Shown here piece after piece: positions 1 through 22,309 of a DNA stretch of 22,494 bases (within the stretch, counting starts at the first letter, position 1; each line of letters begins with the position of its first letter). The notes under the pieces were generated by a model. It did no database searches. It was not told the DNA's origin and saw only the letters and a program-made list of their open reading frames with translations. This DNA comes from a virus. Location of the stretch: positions 1 through 22,494 of the IMG/VR virus record IMGVR_UViG_3300031355_000050. One strand, written 5' to 3'. A program made the translations under genes and the position numbers.

Positions 1-164
1 CAAGTATTTTGGAAGATGCTAAAAAGAAAAATGTAGAGATATTAAATATTTGCCCTGATAGTGAAATTGTATCTTTTAGAAAATTGACATTAAAAGAGTT
101 CTTACAGGAAAATCCTTCATATGTTGTAAATAAAGTAGAACATATGGAAAATGTAATGATATGA
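1..164 (+). CDS. C-terminal end of an unrecognised gene (partial)
   Basis: The reading frame is open from the window edge and ends in TGA at 162-164, leaving about 53 residues (first full codon at 3). The visible end is charged and mixed alpha/beta in character (it includes LNICPDSEIVSF), with no membrane segment. I do not recognise the family. The stop overlaps the ATG of the fucosyltransferase gene at 161 (ATGA), the same coupling seen between most genes downstream. It is therefore probably the preceding member of the glycan-modification island, though this is inferred from position only. Confidence 0.7.
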   Translation, partial: SILEDAKKKNVEILNICPDSEIVSFRKLTLKEFLQENPSYVVNKVEHMENVMI

Positions 165-958
165 ATGTAATAAAATTACAGGGGGGATTAGGTAATCAGC
201 TATTTCAATATGCTTTTGGTATGGCTAAAGAAGAGTATGGCCTTAAAGTTTATTATGATGATACGTGGTATGAGAGGAATAAAAATTTAGAGTGGCCTAG
301 ACCATATCGATTAGATAAGTATGATATTAATGTAAAAATTAAAAACAGAACTAGACTTTTAAAAATATACGATAGGAAGAATGATGCTAATAGGAGAGTT
401 ATCGTTTTGGATGGCTGTTATTTTGATGGTTATTGGCAATATATAAAATTTTACAATAAGATTTTACCTATTTTAAGAAATAAATTTTGTGTTGAGAGAA
501 AATGGTATACTGATGATTTCTTACAATATGTAGAAATGATTACTTCCGAAGAATCAGTTTCAGTGCATATTAGAAGAGGTGATTACGCTCAACCACACAA
601 ATTAGATGCCTTGACACCATTGCCTTTGCAGTATTATTATAATGCCTTAAAACTAATTGATAAAGGAAGTATCTTTATATTTAGTGACGAAATAGAATGG
701 TGCAAGGAACATTTTAATCAGGAAAATTTTGATAGAAAAATAACTTTTGTTAGTTTGGAAGATTATTTGGATTTAGAATTAATGAAGTTATGCACTCATA
801 ATATAATTTCTCACAGTACTTTTAGTTGGTGGGCAGCTTATTTAAATAATAATGAAAGTAAAAAGGTAGTAGCCCCTTCTCATTGGATTATTTCAAAAAA
901 GAAATGGAGTACTTATGATGATTCAGTACATTACCCAAAAGAATGGATAAAAATCTAA
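161..958 (+). CDS. Alpha-1,2-fucosyltransferase-like glycosyltransferase, family GT11
   Basis: Predicted to transfer fucose from GDP-fucose to a sugar hydroxyl in the cytoplasm. The 265-residue protein carries the family hallmarks in order. The N-terminal GGLGNQLFQYAFG is at residues 8-20, the donor-binding HIRRGDY at 136-142, FIFSDEIEW at 172-180, and HSTFSWWAAYL at 218-228 followed by VVAPSHW. Bacterial GT11 enzymes are usually a little under 300 residues, so this one is essentially complete. There is no signal peptide or membrane span. The ATG at 161 overlaps the upstream stop. GDP-fucose must come from the host or from genes outside the window, because no GMD/FCL pair is visible. The family call is strong; the acceptor and exact linkage are unknown. 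Confidence 0.93.
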   Translation: MNVIKLQGGLGNQLFQYAFGMAKEEYGLKVYYDDTWYERNKNLEWPRPYRLDKYDINVKIKNRTRLLKIYDRKNDANRRVIVLDGCYFDGYWQYIKFYNKILPILRNKFCVERKWYTDDFLQYVEMITSEESVSVHIRRGDYAQPHKLDALTPLPLQYYYNALKLIDKGSIFIFSDEIEWCKEHFNQENFDRKITFVSLEDYLDLELMKLCTHNIISHSTFSWWAAYLNNNESKKVVAPSHWIISKKKWSTYDDSVHYPKEWIKI

Positions 959-961
959 TGT

Positions 962-1588
962 ATGCTATTTACTAATTTTGAAAAATATTTAAAGGAATGT
1001 AGGGGGGCTATTCATGTAGGGGCACATGAAGGACAGGAAAGATTTTGGTATGTTCGAAAGGGATTTGAAAAGGTTATTTATTTTGAACCTAATAACGAAT
1101 TGTTTGATAGATTAGTAAAGAATATTTCTGTTTTTTGTGGGCATTATGCCTATAATGCAGGTGTGCATGATATTTTAAAAAGTGCAACTTTGAATATTTC
1201 CAATAATGACGGACAAAGTTCTTCAATTCTCACGCTTCATTTACATAAACTGTACCATCCTAATGTTTATTATGTAGGTGAACAAAAAATAAAAATGGTA
1301 CGTTTAGATGAACTTTTTGATTCGGGTGAAAGACAAATTGAAGATTTTAATTTTCTCAATATAGATGTTCAAGGTGTAGAATTGAGTGTAATTAAAAGTA
1401 TGGGGAAATACCTTGATAAAATTGATTACATTTATACTGAAGTAAACGAAGATGAATTATATAAGGGGTGCTGTTTAGTAACTGAAATTGACGAATATTT
1501 AAAATTGTATGATTTTGTTCGTATGGCTACTAAAATGACTAAAAACAAATGGGGGGATTCTTTTTACATTAAACGAAAATTAGTATGA
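962..1588 (+). CDS. FkbM-family SAM-dependent methyltransferase
   Basis: Predicted sugar O-methyltransferase of the FkbM family, 208 residues. The SAM-binding glycine motif appears as IHVGAHEGQE at residues 17-26, followed by VIYFEPN at 38-44 (the acidic residue that normally binds the SAM ribose). The family motif FLNIDVQGVELSVIKS lies near residue 130, and YIYTEVNED follows. FkbM proteins often occur in glycan clusters and cap sugars by methylation. It starts 3 bp after the fucosyltransferase stop. An ATG at 958 opens only a six-codon frame, so 962 is the start. Its own stop overlaps the next gene (ATGA at 1585). The glycan substrate is inferred from context. Confidence 0.88.
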   Translation: MLFTNFEKYLKECRGAIHVGAHEGQERFWYVRKGFEKVIYFEPNNELFDRLVKNISVFCGHYAYNAGVHDILKSATLNISNNDGQSSSILTLHLHKLYHPNVYYVGEQKIKMVRLDELFDSGERQIEDFNFLNIDVQGVELSVIKSMGKYLDKIDYIYTEVNEDELYKGCCLVTEIDEYLKLYDFVRMATKMTKNKWGDSFYIKRKLV

Positions 1589-2316
1589 AATTCTCATTAG
1601 CTATACCTACTTTTAATCGGCCTGATTTAACAATGGAATCATTCGCTAAGGTGTTATCGAATGAATGTATTGATGAGATTGTTATTTTGGATGATTGTTC
1701 TACAATAGAAAATTATTCGAAACTATTTGAAAGTATCATATATGATACTGGTTTGGATGTGCGAAAAATAAAAATTTACAGAAATTCATCCAATTTAGGG
1801 CCTCTTCGTAATAAGTATGAAGTTGTAAAGAAATGCAATAATGAATATGTGATTCTTCTCGATTCTGATAATATAATTGATGAAAACTATGTGAAATGTT
1901 TTGGCCAACTTCATTTTTTTGATAAGAATGTGTTGTATTGCCCTGAAAAACTAATGAGTTTGGATGGAAAGGTGCAATGGGATTATAGCGAATTTTGTCA
2001 TTTAGATATTGATCACACCAACGCAAAGAATTATTTAGACGTTGGAAGTTTTGAAGCTTGTTTAAATACTGGTAATTATTTGGTAAACAGAGCTATGTAT
2101 TTACAAGTATACGAATCGTATGATAAAGACAACCTACTTAGTTATAATGATGCTATGTATTTTTCTTGTTTATGGTTATTATATGGAAATATGATTAAAA
2201 TAGTTCCAGGGTTATACTATACGCATAGGTTACATAGTGGAAGTTGGTATAAACAAAATAATGACAAATGCAAACAGGCAACAAAAATATTAAGAAACTT
2301 TATTAATTCGTTTTGA
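1585..2316 (+). CDS. GT2-like (GT-A fold) glycosyltransferase
   Basis: A 243-residue inverting glycosyltransferase of the GT2 type. It begins with the usual nucleotide-binding strand (FSLAIPTFNRPDL), continues with VILDDCST at residues 33-40 and NLGPLRNKYEVV, and has the metal-binding DSD at 93-95 within YVILLDSDNIID. The second half contains TGNYLVNR and ends in a charged tail. No membrane helix is seen, so it should act in the cytosol on a soluble or protein-bound acceptor. It overlaps the methyltransferase gene by four bases. Donor and acceptor cannot be deduced. Confidence 0.87.
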   Translation: MKFSLAIPTFNRPDLTMESFAKVLSNECIDEIVILDDCSTIENYSKLFESIIYDTGLDVRKIKIYRNSSNLGPLRNKYEVVKKCNNEYVILLDSDNIIDENYVKCFGQLHFFDKNVLYCPEKLMSLDGKVQWDYSEFCHLDIDHTNAKNYLDVGSFEACLNTGNYLVNRAMYLQVYESYDKDNLLSYNDAMYFSCLWLLYGNMIKIVPGLYYTHRLHSGSWYKQNNDKCKQATKILRNFINSF

Positions 2317-2318
2317 TT

Positions 2319-3185
2319 ATGATTGATTTTATAACTGGTGAAAAATTCAAAACAATTGCTGATTTTACGTATTCCCCTAAACAGAAAATGAGGGATGATT
2401 ATGATAATTTGCAAAATACAATGGAATTGTCAAATTTAAAAGATAGAAATATTGTATATACACATATTTCATATGCCCCTAAATTGCTTAATTTAATAGC
2501 ACATTTAAAAGGACAATTTATTTTGATTACACATAGTTGTGATTGTAGAATTGAAGACAAGAGCATTATTCGTCCAAATGGGAGGGGGGAAGTTGAATCC
2601 GTGACACCTTATGTATTGCCAGATAATTTAATTAAATGGTACACCAAAAATGTGAATTGTATACATCCTAAAATTGAATCAATTCCTATTGGTTTGGAAA
2701 ATAGCATGTGGTTTCCAGATGTGCGCAAGAAAGAAAAAATACTTCAAAGTTCTTTAATATCCACTAAACCACCACTTCGTAATTTGGTTTATTTGAATGT
2801 GAATCGCGACACGAACATGGAACGACTTAAATTATATAGCATGTTTCGTGATAAAACATGGGTAACGTGTGAAAATGGGGTGAATGGTAGGGATTTTGAT
2901 CGTTACCTTGATAATTTGCAAAGACATCGATTTGTGTTTAGCCCCCAGGGGAATGGCATGGATACGCATAGAACTTGGGAATGCCTTTATGTGAAAACGA
3001 TACCTATTGAAAAGAGGAATTTAAACAATAGATTTTATACTGATTTGCCTATTTGTTTTGTTGATGATTGGAGTCAAGTAACTTATGAATTTTTACTATC
3101 TGAATATACTAGAATTTGGAAAGAAAATTGGGATTACAGTAAATTGACTTTTGAATATTGGAAAAATAAAATATTGAATACATGA
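2319..3185 (+). CDS. Exostosin/RXYLT1-C-like glycosyltransferase
   Basis: The C-terminal half carries FVFSPQGNGMDTHRTWE (about residues 205-221) followed by CLYVKTIPIEKR. This is the donor-binding GT-B pattern shared by exostosin-type enzymes and the RXYLT1 (ribitol xylosyltransferase) C-terminal domain. The N-terminal half has SIPIGLENSMWF (about 121-132), also typical of this group. I chose ATG 2319 (288 residues) over the in-frame TTG at 2313: the ATG lies 2 bp after the upstream stop, whereas TTG adds only two residues. The family placement is from motif recall. The donor sugar is unknown; a pentose is possible by analogy only. Confidence 0.78.
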   Translation: MIDFITGEKFKTIADFTYSPKQKMRDDYDNLQNTMELSNLKDRNIVYTHISYAPKLLNLIAHLKGQFILITHSCDCRIEDKSIIRPNGRGEVESVTPYVLPDNLIKWYTKNVNCIHPKIESIPIGLENSMWFPDVRKKEKILQSSLISTKPPLRNLVYLNVNRDTNMERLKLYSMFRDKTWVTCENGVNGRDFDRYLDNLQRHRFVFSPQGNGMDTHRTWECLYVKTIPIEKRNLNNRFYTDLPICFVDDWSQVTYEFLLSEYTRIWKENWDYSKLTFEYWKNKILNT

Positions 3186-3940
3186 AGTATTTGCTTTGCA
3201 TAGCAGATTACAAGGATGATAGACAAGATCATTTTTTAAACTATCATTCACCCCGCAATAAAATGTATTGTGAATATCATGATTTTGAATATATTGAAAT
3301 TTTGGATATTAAAAATCAAGTCACATTTCATAGAGGAATTGTATGGGATAGATTTTTTTTAATTCGAGATTGGATATTAGGTGGAAAAATAAAAGAAGGT
3401 GATATAATTTCTATGATTGACGCTGATATTTGTATTGTAAATGGTGCACAATCATTCGAACCACACGGAGGAAAAAGTTTTGCTTATGCGATTGATTCAT
3501 GTAATACACATTGTATGGGGGCCGTTTCTATACGAGTCAGTAATTGGTCAAAAGAAATGTTAAATTATTTACTTAGTGAAAGTAGATATGATAAGTTTAA
3601 AAACAACCCATTTTGGAAAGTGTTTCATGAGCAAGCTTCGTGGTATTCATTGGCTGGCATAGATGATGTTTTTGCCGATCCGAAACAGAAAAGTTGGATG
3701 AATTTTGACCATAAAGGTTGGTGTTCTACTGGTAAAAATCAACCTGTTTATTCTATTGAGGATTTAGAAAAGAATGTAGATATATTACCAGTAGAATGGA
3801 ATGTTACTTCGTGGCATGATACTAATCAATTTTATAAAATACCCACCACATCTGGTAAAGTGGAGGATGTAATTTTTAGACATTTTGCAGGGAGTAAAAA
3901 ATGGGATAGTACTTGGTCATTGGTAAAAATGATGCAATGA
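3182..3940 (+). CDS. Putative DXD glycosyltransferase (nucleotide-diphospho-sugar transferase fold)
   Basis: A 252-residue soluble protein. Its start (MKYLLCIADYKD), the central ISMIDADICIV with a DXD metal site at residues 80-82, and the late VIFRHFAGSKKWDS resemble GT-A enzymes of the GT34/GMA12 and related nucleotide-diphospho-sugar transferase groups. The HF motif near the end would match the histidine that commonly completes the metal site. The sequence is unusually rich in W, F and Y. ATG 3182 overlaps the preceding stop and its own stop overlaps the next ATG at 3937, so it is translated as part of the coupled chain. Glycosyltransferase activity is likely; the exact family is uncertain. 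Confidence 0.72.
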   Translation: MKYLLCIADYKDDRQDHFLNYHSPRNKMYCEYHDFEYIEILDIKNQVTFHRGIVWDRFFLIRDWILGGKIKEGDIISMIDADICIVNGAQSFEPHGGKSFAYAIDSCNTHCMGAVSIRVSNWSKEMLNYLLSESRYDKFKNNPFWKVFHEQASWYSLAGIDDVFADPKQKSWMNFDHKGWCSTGKNQPVYSIEDLEKNVDILPVEWNVTSWHDTNQFYKIPTTSGKVEDVIFRHFAGSKKWDSTWSLVKMMQ

Positions 3941-4524
3941 GTAATTTAATTGATATATACTTTGAAAAAAAGCATACTACAGATAAGTATGGGGAAAATA
4001 ATCATACTTATCTTTCATTATATAATGTTTTATTCTCAAGATTTAGAGAAAAGAAAATTAAAATATTGGAAATAGGGGTATATCAAGGGGATTCGTTAAA
4101 TTTGTGGGCTGAATATTTTAGTAATTCTATTATTTATGGAATTGATTGTGATTTGAGGCAAGTGAATGTTCCATTATATAGTAATATACATGCAATACAA
4201 GCGAATGCATATAGTTATGTAACTATACAACAATTAACTCAACTAGGTAAATTTGATATTATTATTGATGATGGCTCTCATGTAGTGGGTGAACAAATTT
4301 TTGTGGTTAATAATTATTTGAATTTACTTAAAAACGATGGGATTTTAATTATTGAAGATGCTGCATGTTGGATTAAATCTTTGAAAGAAAAGAAACGTAT
4401 GTTGCAATTGATTATGGAACAATTTCCAAAAGATATTCAGCATTGTGTTTATATTGATGATCGTAGGTATATAAAAGGGAATGATCATGATGTTTTGATT
4501 ATTTGTGATAAAAATTTATTATGA
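3937..4524 (+). CDS. Class I SAM-dependent methyltransferase
   Basis: Predicted small-molecule or sugar methyltransferase of 195 residues. Motif I is ILEIGVYQGDSLNLW, followed by IIYGIDCD with the acidic ribose-binding residue, and FDIIIDDGSHVVGEQ as the motif IV region, then LLKNDGILIIED. The THTYLSLY-type N-terminus plus the DDGSH motif recalls the macrocin/mycinamicin O-methyltransferase and cephalosporin-hydroxylase-like groups. An in-frame TTG at 3913 would extend it by eight residues, but ATG 3937 overlaps the upstream stop as ATGA, matching neighbouring genes, and is preferred. It is the second methyltransferase in the island and is distinct from the FkbM enzyme. Confidence 0.82.
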   Translation: MSNLIDIYFEKKHTTDKYGENNHTYLSLYNVLFSRFREKKIKILEIGVYQGDSLNLWAEYFSNSIIYGIDCDLRQVNVPLYSNIHAIQANAYSYVTIQQLTQLGKFDIIIDDGSHVVGEQIFVVNNYLNLLKNDGILIIEDAACWIKSLKEKKRMLQLIMEQFPKDIQHCVYIDDRRYIKGNDHDVLIICDKNLL

Positions 4525-5285
4525 AAATAAAAGAAATAACTATTTGCTTACATTGTGGTTGCAATATGAAAGTGGTAAATGATCAAATGGATGCTTTAGA
4601 AGGTTTAAATGATTATTACAAGGTATATTGGAACAATCGTATTGATCGACATCCTGGTTCTTACGATTCCTTTTCAGAATTGATTAATCATTCAATTGTA
4701 ACTTCTCCAACAGAGTATATGTTATTTCTTAATGACCGTGTAAAGCCTACATTTTTTGATGCAAAACACATACTTCAATTGTTAGAGAATGGTTTTGCAA
4801 TGGCCACCAAATACAGTGTTGGTTTTATGGGTTTTTCAAAACAATTGATTCGTAAAATTGGATGGTGGGATGAAGGGTATTTTGGTGGTGGTTTTGAAGA
4901 TGATGACTTTGTATTAAGATTACGGTTAGCAAATTTGGCTTATTATGAATCTGAGGAAGCTGAATATGATCAGTCTTGGAAAAGCCCTTTATTTCCAAAA
5001 GGGGCAGAAGCTTGTAAATATTCGGGGGTTTGGTTTCGTCATAAATGGAAGGTGACGAGTAGTGAAGTTAAAAGAATGGTTTGTGAAGAACCTTATTTTA
5101 AATATGATGGAAAAATAGGTGATCATGTTCCTGCGATTGAAGCAAATTGGAAAGATTGGTCACATTCCCAATTAGGAATTATGTTTAAAGAGAGAATAAA
5201 AAGCAGTAAAGGGGGGCCATCAAGAACAAGATTATTTATGAAAGATGATTATAAAACAGAATATCGTAAAGTAACGAGTATATGA
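4521..5285 (+). CDS. GT-A glycosyltransferase with galactosyltransferase-type C-terminal motif
   Basis: A 254-residue protein with GT-A features. YMLFLNDRVKPT at about residues 66-77 occupies the usual DXD position but reads NDR. GWWDEGYFGGGFEDDDF at 114-130 closely follows the conserved WGWGxEDxD-like acceptor/catalytic block of beta-galactosyltransferase-type enzymes (PF02709 style). The tail (GPSRTRLFMKDDYKTEY) is basic. There is no membrane anchor, unlike animal relatives. ATG overlaps the previous stop and its stop overlaps the epimerase ATG. The missing first aspartate of the DXD may mean a variant metal site rather than inactivity, because the EDDD block is intact. Confidence 0.75.
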   Translation: MKIKEITICLHCGCNMKVVNDQMDALEGLNDYYKVYWNNRIDRHPGSYDSFSELINHSIVTSPTEYMLFLNDRVKPTFFDAKHILQLLENGFAMATKYSVGFMGFSKQLIRKIGWWDEGYFGGGFEDDDFVLRLRLANLAYYESEEAEYDQSWKSPLFPKGAEACKYSGVWFRHKWKVTSSEVKRMVCEEPYFKYDGKIGDHVPAIEANWKDWSHSQLGIMFKERIKSSKGGPSRTRLFMKDDYKTEYRKVTSI

Positions 5286-6250
5286 AAAATGTTTTAATAA
5301 CAGGTGGATTAGGATTTCTTGGTTCTCATTCAATTGAGAAATTCAAGGCCGAGGGGTGGAACGTTACCGTTGTTGATAATCTTTCATCCAGTGTTATTAC
5401 ACCTGATGACCCGATTTGTAAAGATGTAAATGTTGTTATTTGTGATCTTTTGGATTATAATTGGGGTTCAACCCAATTTAATTTGATTCTTCATTATGCA
5501 AGTCCGGTTGGCCCTGTTGGAGTTCTTAAACATTCGGGGCAAATGGCAAATATGATTCTTGAAGATACCTATAGAGTCATTTTAGGAGCCAAAATTAATA
5601 GGAACTGCCCTTTGATATTCGTTTCGACTTCGGAAATATACGGATATAGGGATCATGCAATAATGTTGAAAGAAAACGATGACAAGGTGCTTGTCGGTGA
5701 ATTTTCGGTTCGGAATGAATACGCCCAGGCAAAACTACTTGCTGAAATTGTTCTTTGTAATACTGCAAAAACATCCAATTTAAAATATCAAATTGTTCGT
5801 CCTTTCAACATTAGTGGGGCAAGACAATTAAAAGCAGGGGGATTTGTTTTACCTACATTCGTTACACAAGCTTTGGAAGGGAAAGATATAACAGTGTTCG
5901 GGAATGGTGAACAGGTTCGGGCTTTTACACACGTAAAAGATATTGTTGATGGTATTTATTTAGTTTCTACCATGAACAAATATAATCAAATTTGGAACAT
6001 TGGAAATTCACATAATATTTCAACCATTAATTACATTGCCAATTGTGTAAAGGAAGTTACGAAGAGTAAAAGTAAGATTATACATGTAGATCCTAAAACG
6101 ATACATGGACCTCTTTTCGAAGAGACTTGGGACAAAGTTCCGAACTCTGAAAAAATAAGTAGTGAATTGGAGTGGTGTCCAATATATGATCGTGAATATA
6201 TAATTCATGATGTTATAAATTTTTATAGGAGCAAATACAATGGAAAATAG
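5282..6250 (+). CDS. NAD-dependent sugar-nucleotide epimerase/dehydratase (extended SDR)
   Basis: A 322-residue extended short-chain dehydrogenase. It has the Rossmann signature GGLGFLGSH (residues 8-16), VVDNLSS at 30-36, the catalytic serine region FVSTSEIYG (113-121) and the YxxxK pair Y147/K151 in NEYAQAK. RPFNISGARQLKAGG and ITVFGNGEQVRAFTHVKD follow as sugar-nucleotide-binding segments. The pattern is closest to UDP-glucuronate decarboxylase, dTDP-glucose dehydratase and GDP-mannose dehydratase relatives. It is the only visible enzyme that makes a sugar donor rather than uses one, so it may supply a sugar that the host lacks. The last 11 bp overlap the next gene. Substrate is not resolvable by eye. 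Confidence 0.9.
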   Translation: MKNVLITGGLGFLGSHSIEKFKAEGWNVTVVDNLSSSVITPDDPICKDVNVVICDLLDYNWGSTQFNLILHYASPVGPVGVLKHSGQMANMILEDTYRVILGAKINRNCPLIFVSTSEIYGYRDHAIMLKENDDKVLVGEFSVRNEYAQAKLLAEIVLCNTAKTSNLKYQIVRPFNISGARQLKAGGFVLPTFVTQALEGKDITVFGNGEQVRAFTHVKDIVDGIYLVSTMNKYNQIWNIGNSHNISTINYIANCVKEVTKSKSKIIHVDPKTIHGPLFEETWDKVPNSEKISSELEWCPIYDREYIIHDVINFYRSKYNGK

Positions 6251-6914
6251 ACGTACAGTTGTATTAGTTTTAAAAAGTAGTGGAGATTTTACTTTTAATG
6301 ATGTTGAATTGATTGCACATCATATAAATACAAAATGGAAATCTGAAATCAGACCAAGAGTTATTTGTTTGTGGGATCAGACTGATGTTGAATTTTCTTT
6401 AACAGTAGGTGTTGAAGTAATCCCTTTAAGAAATAATTATATTGGAACTTGGTCAAGAATGCAATTGTATAGTCCGGAAATGGAAAAATACAGACCGTTC
6501 TTATACATTGATTTGGATACTGCTGTTATTGATTCTGTAGAGTATTTTTTTGACTTAGTAACGGATCCTACTAAATTTATTACCCTTGAAGATTTTTGGC
6601 AAAAGGGGCAATTAGCAACTGGATTGGTTTGGTTTCCGGCTAATTCCGAAAAAATAAAGCAGGTTTGGAATAATTGGCATCCCAATAAAATGGTGGGTAA
6701 AAGAATGGATTATTTTTTAAAGAAACATATATCGGCTGATCTGTATTGGCAAAGTATGACTAATGGAATTAAAGATTTCAAACCGAGGACCCGTGAATTA
6801 CTAATGTCGTTGCCAAATGATACAAAAATTGTGTGTTTTCATGGAAAACCTCGTATATTTGCAGCATCACGTATTGGATGGATAAATGAGTATATTAATT
6901 CCGTTCCATTATGA
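6240..6914 (+). CDS. GT8-like glycosyltransferase
   Basis: A 224-residue protein resembling short GT8/glycogenin-type retaining transferases. It has IGTWSRMQLYSPE at residues 68-80, FLYIDLDTAVIDSV with the DXD motif at 91-93, and VCFHGKPRIF near the end, where the histidine completes the metal site. It overlaps the epimerase gene by 11 bp and, unlike most genes of the island, has its own good ribosome site (AGGAG at 6227-6231, eight bases before the ATG), so it may be translated more independently. There is no membrane segment. Donor and acceptor are unknown. Confidence 0.82.
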   Translation: MENRRTVVLVLKSSGDFTFNDVELIAHHINTKWKSEIRPRVICLWDQTDVEFSLTVGVEVIPLRNNYIGTWSRMQLYSPEMEKYRPFLYIDLDTAVIDSVEYFFDLVTDPTKFITLEDFWQKGQLATGLVWFPANSEKIKQVWNNWHPNKMVGKRMDYFLKKHISADLYWQSMTNGIKDFKPRTRELLMSLPNDTKIVCFHGKPRIFAASRIGWINEYINSVPL

Positions 6915-7522
6915 AAGTGACAATAATTATACCATATAAAATTGATAGAGGATGGCTCAAACAAGCAATTGATAGTGTTCCATCTGATGTTCAATTAATT
7001 TTGAGTCAGGGAAATGGAAATTGGCCTCGGAATTTCAATAAAGCTCTTCCACAAGCTCAAGGGGATTTAATCAAATTCTTACATGAAGATGATATACTTC
7101 TTCCAGGGGCTATTGAACAATATATCAAAGCATTTGAATCCCCTACATTTGAAAATGTGCATTTTGCTCATGGAAATGCTCGTGAAATGTATTTAGATGT
7201 TGGTTTTTATTCAAAGACATATGTACCATCAATTAAACTACCTACTTTAAATGATCTTCTTAAAAAGAATGTAATTCATAGTAGTTCTTTAATATATCGT
7301 AAAGAAGTATTTGAAAAAATAGGGGGTTTTAATGAAGATCCCAAAATGCACTCGTTTGAAGAGTTGGAATTTAATTTAAGATGTTTAAAAGCAAGATTTA
7401 ATATTGGATATATTGATTTTGCATTTGAAGGGTATCGTAGGCATCCTAAACAAATAATTCGTACTTGTGATTCAGTGTCTCGTAAAAAGAATAGACGTCA
7501 ACTTATTAATAGTTATTTATGA
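6911..7522 (+). CDS. Short GT2-family glycosyltransferase
   Basis: A 203-residue GT-A enzyme: MKVTIIIPYKIDRGWLKQAI at the start, GDLIKFLHEDDILLPGA with the metal-binding EDD at residues 59-61, and SSLIYRKEVFEKIGGFNED plus SFEELEFNLR, the usual acceptor-side block of GT2 proteins. It is somewhat shorter than many GT2 enzymes but has all core motifs and ends with a basic tail. ATGA overlaps join it to both neighbours. It is the last of seven predicted glycosyltransferases in the island. Confidence 0.87.
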   Translation: MKVTIIIPYKIDRGWLKQAIDSVPSDVQLILSQGNGNWPRNFNKALPQAQGDLIKFLHEDDILLPGAIEQYIKAFESPTFENVHFAHGNAREMYLDVGFYSKTYVPSIKLPTLNDLLKKNVIHSSSLIYRKEVFEKIGGFNEDPKMHSFEELEFNLRCLKARFNIGYIDFAFEGYRRHPKQIIRTCDSVSRKKNRRQLINSYL

Positions 7523-8205
7523 TGAATGTAATTGATTCACCGATTTTTGTTACAGGAATAGAACGATCAGGAAGTTCTATTATTGCAAGAATTTTGCAAA
7601 TGTGCGGGGCATACACGGGGCGAACGAGTGAAATGATGGAAAATGATCAAGTTAAGAACTTGGTAGATAAATACTATTCAGATTTGCATGTTGATAAAAA
7701 TGGTCGTTACCCACTTCCAGATACTAAAGAACTTTTAATTCCTGTTAATTGGGCTAAGGAAGTCAAATTGAGAATACAACTATACAGTGATGTTACATGG
7801 TTATATAAAAGTTCACGAATTGCGCAAGTATGGCCCGTTTGGAGTTGTGCTTTTCCAAATGCTAAATATGTTATAGTTCGTAGACGTACGGGTGATATTA
7901 TTTCTTCGTGCATGAAAACGGCGTATATGGATACATTTAAATTAAAAGTAAATCAAAAGGCTGTAGGGGCTGATTCGGAAAATGACGGATGGTTGTGGTG
8001 GGTTCATCAACATGAAAAATTATTCATTGAAATGATTGAAAGTGGTTTAAATTGTAAAGTAATTTGGCCTGAACGTATGGTGTATGGTGACTATTGTCAA
8101 ATACATGAATTACTCAAATGGGTTGGGTTATCTTGGAATAGTAATGTAGTTGCATTAGCGGAGTCTTTATTACAAAATAGTCCTCAAAGAAAGAAAGGAG
8201 AATAA
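7519..8205 (+). CDS. Sulfotransferase-family protein (PAPS-dependent)
   Basis: A 228-residue P-loop protein. IFVTGIERSGSSIIARIL (residues 9-26) matches the 5'-phosphosulfate-binding loop of bacterial sulfotransferases, and KYVIVRRRTGDIISSCM (116-132) matches the 3'-phosphate-binding segment with its conserved arginine and serine. It would transfer sulfate from PAPS to a sugar hydroxyl. It is shorter than many family members, with little after the PAPS site, so substrate recognition may be minimal. It overlaps the GT2 gene (ATGA; a second ATG follows at 7522) and ends 1 bp before the head-tail connector gene, making it the last gene of the island. PAPS would have to come from the host. Confidence 0.82.
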   Translation: MMNVIDSPIFVTGIERSGSSIIARILQMCGAYTGRTSEMMENDQVKNLVDKYYSDLHVDKNGRYPLPDTKELLIPVNWAKEVKLRIQLYSDVTWLYKSSRIAQVWPVWSCAFPNAKYVIVRRRTGDIISSCMKTAYMDTFKLKVNQKAVGADSENDGWLWWVHQHEKLFIEMIESGLNCKVIWPERMVYGDYCQIHELLKWVGLSWNSNVVALAESLLQNSPQRKKGE

Positions 8206-8206: not shown

Positions 8207-8590
8207 ATGGCACTAATTACAGCAATTGAAATAAGAGAAATAATGGATGATACTACGATTCCAGATGCTTTGATAGCTGCATGTATGGCTGCTGCGGAAG
8301 CTGTTATTGATAAAGTATTTGAAGGGGATGGGGATATTACGGATACTTTAAAGAAAGAGATTTCCAGGTGGTTTACGGCACATATGGTTGCATCAACACC
8401 TAACTACAGAACAACGATTGAAGAAAAGGTTGGAGAAGCTCAAGTAAAATATACAGGGAAATATGCAGATTTCCTTTCTTCTACACCATTTGGACAGATG
8501 GCACTTCAATTAGATGTAACTGGAAAGATGGCGAATTATGCAGGTAAGAGGTCTGCTAATATTTATGCAATAACTAGTTTTGATGATTAA
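8207..8590 (+). CDS. Head-tail connector / adaptor protein (HK97 gp6-like)
   Basis: A 127-residue, mostly helical protein at the position where phages place the adaptor that docks under the portal. It has the pattern of these connectors: an N-terminal helical segment (TAIEIREIMDDTTIPDALIA), a short loop, a helix ending WFTAHMVA, and the C-terminal STPFGQMALQLDVTG that recurs in gp6-like or DUF4054-like adaptors. It is followed within 3 bp by the head-closure gene. The assignment combines motif recall with gene order. Confidence 0.75.
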   Translation: MALITAIEIREIMDDTTIPDALIAACMAAAEAVIDKVFEGDGDITDTLKKEISRWFTAHMVASTPNYRTTIEEKVGEAQVKYTGKYADFLSSTPFGQMALQLDVTGKMANYAGKRSANIYAITSFDD

Positions 8591-9894: not shown

Positions 9895-10315
9895 ATGGCT
9901 AGTAACGCAAAAGCTGGAGTTGGAACCGAATTTCGCAGATGGTCTGGTAGAAATTGCAGAAATTAATTCCATCACAGGCCCTGGTATGTCCAGGGACACA
10001 ATAGACGTTACCTCCCTTAGTTCTACTGGGGGGTATAGGGAATTTATAACGGGTTTTCGTAATGCTGGCACAGTTGTACTTGCAATGAACTTTACAAGAT
10101 CAACATATGATCTTATGAAAGATGATTTTGAAAGTGATGTGGCAAGAAATTACGAAATATTACTTCCGGATGATGAAGCTACTTCATTAGAATTTGAAGG
10201 TTTGGTAATTGATTTACCATTAACTATTCCTGCTGATGATAAGATCACAGTAAATGTAACTATCCAAATTTCTGGACAAGTTGTGATTAATAGTGGTTCG
10301 GGTTCTGGAACTTAA
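9895..10315 (+). CDS. Major tail tube protein, split by a +1 frame change near its N-terminus
   Basis: The main body (open to TAA 10313-10315) reads EIAEINSITGPGMSRDTIDV, then GGYREFITGFRNAG, NFTRSTYDLMKDDFESD and IPADDKITVNVTIQISG, which is characteristic of HK97/lambda-like tail tube proteins. That frame has no ATG upstream of the body, only a TTG at 9920. The only well-placed start, ATG 9895 behind AGGAGG, opens another frame (MASNAKAGVGTEFRRWSG) that stops at 9964-9966 after 23 residues, and this peptide itself looks like the usual tail tube N-terminus. The two parts join only with a +1 shift between about 9931 and 9950. Explanations are a base-call or assembly error, a real mutation, or +1 recoding, with UUU-C at 9931-9934 as a candidate. 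Joined length is about 139 residues. Confidence 0.8.
9979..9995 (+). other. GC-rich hairpin inside the tail tube gene
   Basis: CCCTGG (9979-9984) and CCAGGG (9990-9995) form a perfect six-pair stem with the five-base loop TATGT. It lies roughly 30 to 45 bases after the region where the frame changes. It encodes GPGMSRD-type residues, so it may be incidental. Confidence 0.4.
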
Positions 10316-19347: not shown

Positions 19348-19971
19348 TTATAATTCATTTACTTTACTTCGTTTATTACGTATTGTAACTTCAATTACTT
19401 TGTCCGCCGATTCCATTATTTCCTCGCGTGATATACGTTCGTCGCTAACCATAATTACTTGCATACCCATTTTATTAGAAATTTCACGTATCATTTCCAG
19501 AACAAGTTTATTAGGTTCCTCCCCTTTCAAATATTTAAAAGGTTCGTCTTGTATGAGTATATTTTGGGAACGTGGAGTTTGCATTGTCCAACAACCAACA
19601 CGAAGAGCTATTGCAGCCACATCAACAGCACCAAATCCAGATGCTTCCATAGGATCTATTCTATTTCCGTCACGTTCGAAGTACAGATCACATTCCGTTT
19701 TGTTTCGACGTTGTACAAACTCTACTTGCAACGTGTACGGTTCTGGAAATACCGAATCCATTGCCATCGAAGCTATGTCAGAAATATGGGTTTGTAATTG
19801 TTGCTGTGTTTTCATTCCGACTTCTCGAATGATTTCCCTGGCTTCCTCATGCCTTTGTAAATTCCTTTTACATTCCTTAATTTCTAATCGGATGGAATTT
19901 ATCGTTTTCCCAATACTGGAACGTTCCCCCTTTATTCTTTCCAGCCTGTTTCTGATCTCTTTTATATTCAT
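19348..19971 (-). CDS. Rad50/SbcC-like ATPase, C-terminal half only
   Basis: A 207-residue protein. Residues 1-60 form a charged coiled-coil arm. Then come MEASGFGAVDVAAIALR (108-124), matching the ABC/SMC signature region, and NILIQDEPFKYLKG (137-150), a Walker B with D142/E143. QVIMVSDERIS (171-181) follows at the switch position, where a histidine is usual but serine is seen here. There is no Walker A (GxxGxGKS/T) anywhere, so on its own it cannot make a complete ATP site. It would need a separate N-terminal half or a partner. A Mre11/SbcD-like phosphoesterase encoded about 1.5 kb upstream on the same strand supports a role in DNA end processing or recombination. Confidence 0.75.
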   Translation of the reverse strand: MNIKEIRNRLERIKGERSSIGKTINSIRLEIKECKRNLQRHEEAREIIREVGMKTQQQLQTHISDIASMAMDSVFPEPYTLQVEFVQRRNKTECDLYFERDGNRIDPMEASGFGAVDVAAIALRVGCWTMQTPRSQNILIQDEPFKYLKGEEPNKLVLEMIREISNKMGMQVIMVSDERISREEIMESADKVIEVTIRNKRSKVNEL

Positions 19972-21290: not shown

Positions 21291-21449
21291 TTAACAATAT
21301 TTATAATACCATTCTGCTGGATGAAAATCTAAAAGTTCTGGAAAACTTTTTAAATATTTATCAATAACTTCCTTTGCTTGTTTATCATTCATGTGATATG
21401 TACTACAACGAATATTATTCACTAAATTTTCATATACTTTTCTTGTCAT
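21291..21449 (-). CDS. 52-residue small protein, function unknown
   Basis: ATG at 21449 overlaps the stop of the phosphoesterase gene as ATGA, and the frame ends in TAA at 21293-21291. The product reads MTRKVYENLVNNIRCSTYHM, NDKQAKEVIDKYLKSFPELL, DFHPAEWYYKYC. It looks like a compact helical protein with two cysteines. The four-base coupling to a clear gene and the protein-like composition support it. The family is not recognised. Confidence 0.65.
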   Translation of the reverse strand: MTRKVYENLVNNIRCSTYHMNDKQAKEVIDKYLKSFPELLDFHPAEWYYKYC

Positions 21450-22309
21450 TTTCCTATAGATTTATAAACTATTTCCATTACTGATTTACGTATACTATTT
21501 TCTTTTTCGAACTGTTCCAAATTGTCTTCAAAAGATAAAGCAGCTTTAAATTTTGTATTTAAAGAATTTACGAATATTTCAATTCTTTCGTTACGTGCTT
21601 CAACTTTGTCTAAATGTTCCCGTGTGTAGGTTTCTTTATGGTATGGCAAATAAATAGGTTCTACCGTGTTCGTATCCGAATACCACAAATAGACACGTGG
21701 TAAATTAGTTTCACCTGCTTTTTGTAAAGTTAATGGCCCAGGATTAACCAATATTCTATCCTCATACTCTTCTACAAATGGGGTATGATTATCGCCTGTA
21801 AGAATTAAACTAAAACGTGAGTATTTTTTTAATAATTCAATAGCAGGTAAATGTACACAACCAGGCCATGGACGTGTACCTTGCCATGTGAAACGATGCC
21901 AAACTAAAATATCATCGTCATTTTCAAAAGGAACCATTCCCCAACTTAAAAATTGCATTCCTTTAGGTGTAATACCATTTACGATATCTGCTTGTTCTAA
22001 AGTATATATACCACTTTTTTCTTGTAAATTTAAGTTATGCTGAGGCAAATCATGATTGCCATATACAGTATAAAACTTTTTAGGCAAATGTATTATTGTT
22101 TTGGACAATAACCACGGAGAAGGTTTCCAATAATTAAACAGATCACCAGCATGTAAAACAGGGCAATTATGTTTACATTGCAAGTTTGCTACAAAGTCAA
22201 CTGCTTCCCATTGTTCTTTTTGAAAATCTGTTCTGCATATTGGTGTATCTTCCCGGATATGCCAGTCAGAAGTTAAGATGAGATCCGGCTGTTTCTTCTT
22301 TCTAATCAT
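21446..22309 (-). CDS. Mre11/SbcD-like metallophosphoesterase
   Basis: A 287-residue calcineurin-like phosphoesterase with all five metal motifs: SDWH (residues 14-17), HAGDLF (53-58), GNHD (84-87), VWH (136-138) and TGDNHTP (171-177), followed by LVNPGPLT (188-194). The order and spacing fit the SbcD/Mre11/YfcE side of the family. Mre11-type enzymes are nucleases that process DNA ends with a Rad50-type ATPase, and a half Rad50-like gene lies downstream on the same strand. A Mre11 capping domain is not obvious, and the C-terminal 80 residues are helical. A stand-alone phosphodiesterase is the alternative. It overlaps both neighbours (8 bp upstream, 4 bp downstream). Confidence 0.82.
   Translation of the reverse strand: MIRKKKQPDLILTSDWHIREDTPICRTDFQKEQWEAVDFVANLQCKHNCPVLHAGDLFNYWKPSPWLLSKTIIHLPKKFYTVYGNHDLPQHNLNLQEKSGIYTLEQADIVNGITPKGMQFLSWGMVPFENDDDILVWHRFTWQGTRPWPGCVHLPAIELLKKYSRFSLILTGDNHTPFVEEYEDRILVNPGPLTLQKAGETNLPRVYLWYSDTNTVEPIYLPYHKETYTREHLDKVEARNERIEIFVNSLNTKFKAALSFEDNLEQFEKENSIRKSVMEIVYKSIGK

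Follow-up and report, generated by a model that had tools for sequence, protein, structure and literature searches.

What is a run of sugar-modifying genes doing inside the structural operon of a tailed phage? The question is raised by IMG/VR record IMGVR_UViG_3300031355_000050, a linear fragment of 22,494 bp that was analysed as the complete record and is called the window below. It carries 11 soluble genes between positions 161 and 8205, all on the + strand, ending directly before the head-tail connector gene. An original prediction, made before any database search, held that their products build a methylated, fucosylated and possibly sulfated glycan on virion proteins. From homology and gene comparison, we consider it probable that these genes are a virion-glycosylation cassette, whose enzymes would glycosylate and sulfate virion proteins in the cytoplasm.

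The open reading frames, their strand and order, and the 1-bp gap between the island's end (8205) and the connector's start (8207) are as originally described. Stop and start codons mostly overlap by 4 bases (gaps between successive genes of 3, -4, -4, -4, -28, -4, -4, -11, -4, -4 and +1 bp, the last being to the connector; the -28 becomes -4 if 3913-4524 begins at ATG 3937), and the pattern resembles that of one translationally coupled operon. The cassette genes, and the two structural genes needed below, are as follows, related loci being numbered with the prefix L and GT denoting glycosyltransferase:

3-164, + strand: GT42/Maf (MptE/DUF115-like) transferase, C-terminal end, truncated at the edge of the contig (47% identical to the last part of L002:3424-4125).
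161-958, + strand: GT11 family glycosyltransferase (fucosyltransferase family) with an HIRRGDY motif (PF01531, 1.3e-23; phrog_2644, 1.1e-38).
962-1588, + strand: FkbM-type methyltransferase (PF05050, 1.6e-17; TIGR01444, 4.8e-18, over its cut-off).
1585-2316, + strand: GT2 glycosyltransferase (PF00535, 3.1e-13).
2313-3185, + strand: GT114-type xylosyltransferase homologue of the chlorovirus A075L family (donor-domain homology by phmmer to 8q8i/8avq/8asa, E 6.8e-41 as a single sequence and 3.8e-54 as a profile).
3182-3940, + strand: unclassified protein with a DxD-like motif (IDAD), putative GT-A glycosyltransferase (motif IDADICIVNG alone).
3913-4524, + strand: class I S-adenosylmethionine-dependent methyltransferase, likely start 3937 in an ATGA overlap (PF13578, Methyltransf_24, 4.6e-6; phrog_21658, 3.6e-20).
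4521-5285, + strand: putative GT7-like glycosyltransferase (PF02709, GT7C, 1.8e-4, under the Pfam cut-off).
5282-6250, + strand: NAD-dependent sugar-nucleotide enzyme, nearest to UDP-glucuronate decarboxylase, that is, UDP-xylose synthase (UXS) (PF01370, 1.3e-36; best PDB match UXS1, 3.6e-27).
6240-6914, + strand: phage glycosyltransferase of PHROG 1962 (2e-24; homologues in the cassettes of many relatives).
6911-7522, + strand: GT2 glycosyltransferase (PF00535, 2.5e-8).
7519-8205, + strand: sulfotransferase of the type using 3'-phosphoadenosine 5'-phosphosulfate (PAPS), the cassette's conserved last gene (PF13469, Sulfotransfer_3, 4.1e-9).
8207-8590, + strand: head-tail connector, the cassette's right border (PF13262, DUF4054, 1.2e-6; phrog_302).
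9920-10315, + strand: major tail tube protein, ending ...QVVINSGSGSGT, candidate acceptor (PF16460, 3.2e-13).

As the fragment begins inside the cassette, its capsid gene lies outside the window, and the left border was seen in relatives. Searches with the connector and the tail terminator led to two loci, L002 and L004, in which a homologous island stands exactly between the connector and the gene for the major capsid protein (MCP) with one small head gene after it. The island is therefore inside a structural operon, as had been proposed, and where polysaccharide export genes to its left would have spoken against that proposal, relatives have the MCP and the small head gene instead. Relatives of the MCP itself number 271 in IMG/VR and 11 among genome contigs, all of the latter being either metagenome bins with mixed taxonomy or distant hits in Brevibacillus; identity to cultured phages is at most 35%. 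Hidden Markov models built here were run over 244 loci; after de-replication, 76 viruses had the MCP and the connector on the same contig. In this set the two genes are 0.1 to 10.7 kb apart, and nearly all members fill the space with a cassette, of up to 14 genes, with 566 of 571 cassette genes on a single strand. The usual order is a Maf-like gene, variable GTs and a sulfotransferase: the Maf-like gene stands first in 69 of 74 cassettes and the sulfotransferase last in 61 of 74, both genes being present in 63, and the Maf-like family was found in 71 of the 76 relatives. Whole contigs show one late operon on one strand, running terminase, portal, Mu F-like, DUF2213, MCP, cassette, connector and tail. 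The clade consists of uncultured siphophage-type phages whose longest contigs are about 62-75 kb. Two loci (L235 and L238) have no cassette at all, the gap being 83-94 bp, and neither do the distant cultured phages MaInes and Hardycor1, so that the cassette looks acquired in this clade.

Between its borders the cassette turns over. When the Maf-like and sulfotransferase genes and the small gene after the MCP ('p129') are left out, 106 middle families remain, 67 of them seen once. Capsid identity barely predicts cassette content (2,346 pairs, rho 0.10); L046 and L058, with capsids 86% identical, have no middle family in common. The locus nearest to the window, L173, holds almost the same gene set, with the epimerase elsewhere and one methyltransferase fewer. 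Cassette content is thus exchanged between fixed borders.

The two bookends are informative in their own right. The sulfotransferase carries a 5'-phosphosulfate-binding motif (TGxxRSGTS) and a 3'-phosphate-binding motif (R122-x3-D126-x3-S130) that are conserved across 53 sequences, and its AlphaFold2 (AF2) model (predicted local distance difference test, pLDDT, 94.9) is nearest to STF9 and to tyrosylprotein sulfotransferases 1 and 2 (probability 1.00, template modelling (TM) score 0.54-0.62); single-sequence searches of PDB and of cultured phages gave nothing useful. Seven relatives also encode adenosine 5'-phosphosulfate (APS) kinase (PF01583, 1e-13 to 1e-20; best PDB match 2yvu, 2e-11), for instance at L019:8671-9093, and this gene adjoins the sulfotransferase in all six relatives whose gene order was determined, which makes sulfation the likely function and strengthens the original suggestion of a possibly sulfated glycan. 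One further candidate for APS kinase, L030:12275-12811, was rejected, being a methyltransferase. For the Maf-like family, of which 53 members were aligned, an AF2 model of the relatives (pLDDT 94.6) is nearest to the sialyltransferase CstII (Foldseek probability 1.00, E 5.7e-5, TM about 0.5), and similar folds were found in other phage and mimivirus proteins. Distant Maf-like proteins of other phages occur at L228:10001-10591, L230:10001-10582 and L229:3830-4492; the isolate-genome loci L228 and L230 are without this cassette, and those in L230 and L229 lie near head or tail genes, the sugar cassette being absent.

A second line of evidence comes from 2313-3185, which Pfam annotation alone overlooked and a PDB sequence search recovered. 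A075L of the chlorovirus PBCV-1, founder of GT114, is a beta-xylosyltransferase that attaches xylose to fucose in the capsid glycan of chloroviruses (PMC11571054). Six A075L residues on the list taken from that structure paper, the catalytic Asp73, the phosphate-binding Arg158 and Arg208, and Glu211, Asn202 and Gly203, correspond to D77, R171, R220, E223, N214 and G215 of the window protein (Asp73/D77 by profile register). All six are invariant in 18 of 18 sequences, the window and 17 relatives, and 15 of these sequences retain the counterpart of Asn148. The chlorovirus parallel that had been drawn by analogy is in part true homology, since 2313-3185 groups with A075L. GT11 and GT114 genes occur together in 16 cassettes, apart in four (three and one) and not at all in 54 (Fisher 2e-12, kinship uncorrected), as expected if GT114 xylosylates fucose. 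This co-occurrence and the UXS-like neighbour are consistent with a UDP-xylose donor and a fucose acceptor for 2313-3185, and GT11 membership and its tight association with GT114 likewise suggest the predicted fucosylation. Another GT11-family gene was seen upstream of protease and capsid genes at L254:2241-6659 (contig 3300027902_000156, 22241-26659), in a run of uncharacterised genes that may be a second sugar-enzyme cluster.

Among the structural proteins, the tail tube is the best acceptor candidate on the basis of its sequence. Its last 15 residues average 31% Ser/Thr, versus 6-26% for the head and tail proteins with which it was compared (26% being the tail chaperone). A terminal run of at least four Ser, Gly or Thr is present in 55 of 92 clade tail-tube proteins versus 1 of 11 cultured-phage homologues, or versus 1 of 13 when L237 and L238 join the controls (Fisher 5e-4, phylogeny uncontrolled). 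The tail tube of L238, which is cassette-free, has no Ser/Gly tail, and that of L237, whose cassette is reduced to the sulfotransferase, has a C-terminal extension without one. Three further proteins drew attention. In L237:13952-14641 the tail tube bears, by eye, an Ig-like-looking C-terminal domain in place of the Ser/Gly tail; L004:7634-8665 encodes a second tail-tube paralogue, between sulfotransferase and connector, with a FISUMP-like C-terminal domain (by eye) that is possibly a displayed tail decoration; and L246:12870-14897, in the head region of the contig of L173, encodes a 675-residue protein that matches Laminin_G_3 (lectin-like), DUF2341 and, weakly, GH43 and may be a virion protein that binds carbohydrate. 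The small p129 gene was considered as a dedicated glycan acceptor and rejected, as MaInes and Hardycor1 have a similar small gene there and no cassette.

Taken together, these observations suggest the following scheme, in which we infer the enzyme activities, the order of steps, the acceptor and the biological role. The enzymes would be expressed with the structural operon late in infection and would act in the cytoplasm without a lipid carrier, placing the sugar chain straight onto a virion protein. Starting or attaching the glycan is probably the task of the GT42/Maf-like enzyme, and the variable GTs, sugar-nucleotide enzymes and methyltransferases would lengthen and methylate the chain; in the window, the GT11, UXS-like and GT114 enzymes would together produce a fucose/xylose motif resembling the one in the capsid glycan of chloroviruses. 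The sulfotransferase, usually the last gene, would then add sulfate from PAPS, whose supply the APS kinase of some relatives may supplement. Likely acceptors are the Ser/Gly-rich C-terminal tail of the tail tube, the capsid, or both. With the middle genes swapped among relatives, the coat would differ from phage to phage. As a tentative extension, which we hold with less than even confidence, the locus may act as a virion 'serotype locus', where a fixed frame of Maf-like and sulfotransferase genes encloses exchangeable enzymes that give each phage its own glycan, sulfated and methylated, on the tail tube and/or the capsid, with some enzymes shared with chloroviruses.

Phage-borne sugar enzymes can serve other ends. 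The cassette could alter a host surface polysaccharide (lipopolysaccharide, capsule or S-layer glycan) for superinfection exclusion or serotype conversion, as phage Gtr clusters do; its GT2, GT11, GT9, GT29 and sulfotransferase families are typical of surface polysaccharide loci, and its turnover resembles that of O-antigen loci. However, no cassette protein among the 566 shows two or more hydrophobic segments, so none is multi-spanning, and neither the flippase PF01943 (Polysacc_synt) nor GtrA (PF04138) was found in 17 related contigs, although control genomes gave matches to both; the original description of soluble enzymes and no flippase extends in this way to the relatives. That almost all of the 76 viruses keep the cassette between capsid and connector also speaks against a host-surface role, and so many late enzymes would suit poorly a function needed early or in lysogeny. 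We therefore regard this explanation as quite unlikely. Glycosylation of phage DNA at hypermodified bases, as a defence against restriction, appears highly improbable. Phage GTs often act on DNA, and diverse DNA glycans have been reported (Pyle 2024, as cited in PMC12619734), but such a role is at odds with a sulfotransferase, an APS kinase and an enzyme homologous to one that builds a capsid glycan, the genes stand among structural and not replication genes, and no hydroxymethylase of the thymidylate synthase family (PF00303) was found in the 17 related contigs (9 of 14 controls gave matches). Both explanations are weaker than virion glycosylation: with no multi-spanning protein, flippase, GtrA or thymidylate synthase, the products would most simply be placed on cytoplasmic virion proteins before lysis.

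Virion glycosylation has points against it as well. Its computable predictions all agreed with the data, yet product and acceptor are deduced from the genes of an uncultured clade. In a few relatives the cassette is without the Maf-like gene or without the sulfotransferase, the association tests treat related sequences as more independent than they are, the Ser/Gly tails may be plain linkers, and soluble GTs could act on host surface precursors. The sulfotransferase, with a fold near the tyrosylprotein sulfotransferases, may also sulfate protein and not sugar. In that event the virion proteins would still carry a glycan, unsulfated, and sulfate would go to a structural-protein tyrosine or another acceptor. 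We consider this unlikely: tyrosylprotein sulfotransferases 1 and 2 are indeed among the nearest solved folds, but STF9 is equally high and the similarity modest, so that the acceptor class is unreadable from the fold, and the sulfotransferase goes together with the GT cassette, both being missing in L235 and L238.

The enzyme inventory originally proposed was right in outline. Five of its seven glycosyltransferases are supported, the match of 4521-5285 is weak and 3182-3940 is unclassified; the two methyltransferases, the epimerase and the sulfotransferase match their families; and it overlooked a twelfth enzyme, the Maf-like transferase, of which the window keeps only the last 53 residues. 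No match to 3182-3940 was found in Pfam, NCBIfam or PDB, and no family even when it was searched as a profile; about 250 residues long, its family comprises the window protein and six relatives (53-63% identity) and is a candidate new glycosyltransferase family by sequence. In NCBIfam, 5282-6250 is ambiguous among dehydratase, UXS and GalE models, every one below cut-off. The epimerase of L002 is clearly a GDP-mannose 3,5-epimerase (1e-88), and in the same locus the counterparts of 6240-6914 and 6911-7522 are fused. To the right of the connector follow head closure, neck, tail terminator, tail tube, chaperone, tape measure and fibre genes. A promoter scan gave no excess over shuffles, and Shine-Dalgarno motifs are scarce (12-21% of genes), which is weakly compatible with a Bacteroidota host. 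On the minus strand, in a leftward early region, lie what appear by eye to be an SbcC-like ATPase fragment and an SbcD-like nuclease (19348-19971 and 21446-22309).

If virion glycosylation is correct, tailed phages own giant-virus-like glycan machinery, sulfation included, that is tied to capsid genes and varies like a bacterial capsule locus, and a chlorovirus capsid-glycan enzyme family is linked to phages. Phages may then vary their coats much as bacteria vary capsules; it would become testable whether host receptors, surface layers, grazers or other binders exert antigenic-type selection on phage particles in nature, and under the serotype-locus proposal whatever recognises the particle would drive diversification. 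The enzymes would also offer a soluble, carrier-free toolkit for protein glycosylation and sulfation. We found no paper describing such a cassette in a literature search with little reach into subscription journals, and under the serotype-locus proposal it would, as far as we know, be the first phage system that makes sulfated virion glycans.

Several known systems bear comparison. Gtr serotype-conversion clusters of temperate phages are, like the cassette, phage-borne and variable in glycosyltransferase specificity, but the cassette has no GtrA flippase or membrane GT, and its position and size differ. Judged by the Wzx, Wzy and initiating transferase of a lipid-linked polysaccharide or O-antigen locus, it does not look like one, as no PF01943 was found in the 17 related contigs and no multi-spanning protein among the 566. 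Maf proteins are known in connection with flagellin, and Campylobacter CstII carries the fold of the GT42 group; CstII is the best match to the predicted fold of the cassette's first gene, which Pfam weakly calls MptE-like, although sequence identity is 15-17%. In mycobacteriophages, phage GTs glycosylate capsid and tail-tube subunits at their C-termini (Freeman et al. 2023, Cell Host Microbe, as presented in PMC12619734 and PMC12363180). Both systems would use phage-encoded GTs for the virion, here with linkage to structural genes in nearly all of the 76 viruses. Those accounts name single GTs, such as Che8 gp110 and Corndog gp38, whereas the cassettes, known from their genes, hold up to 14 genes, among them sugar-nucleotide enzymes and methyl- and sulfotransferases, in a slot that stays fixed while its content can be exchanged. 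The glycogene clusters of the mimivirus group also combine clade-specific GTs, methyltransferases and sugar-nucleotide enzymes, in some with SAT/APS kinase, but they belong to another kind of virus, serve surface fibrils and have no capsid-to-connector slot (PMC9614988). The capsid N-glycan machinery of PBCV-1 shares with the window virus-encoded soluble enzymes and a homologous xylosyltransferase with the same catalytic residues (PMC11571054, PMC9614988), and the window's GT11-family and UXS-like enzymes are consistent with a fucose-xylose motif. There the virus is a eukaryotic giant virus and the glycan is N-linked to the capsid protein VP54, whereas here it is a tailed phage with sulfotransferase and Maf-like bookends, homology being shown for the GT114 enzyme only. 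If our inference holds, the cassette belongs to virus-encoded virion glycosylation, and what it adds is a large, modular version in a tailed phage, with sulfation genes and fixed bookends.

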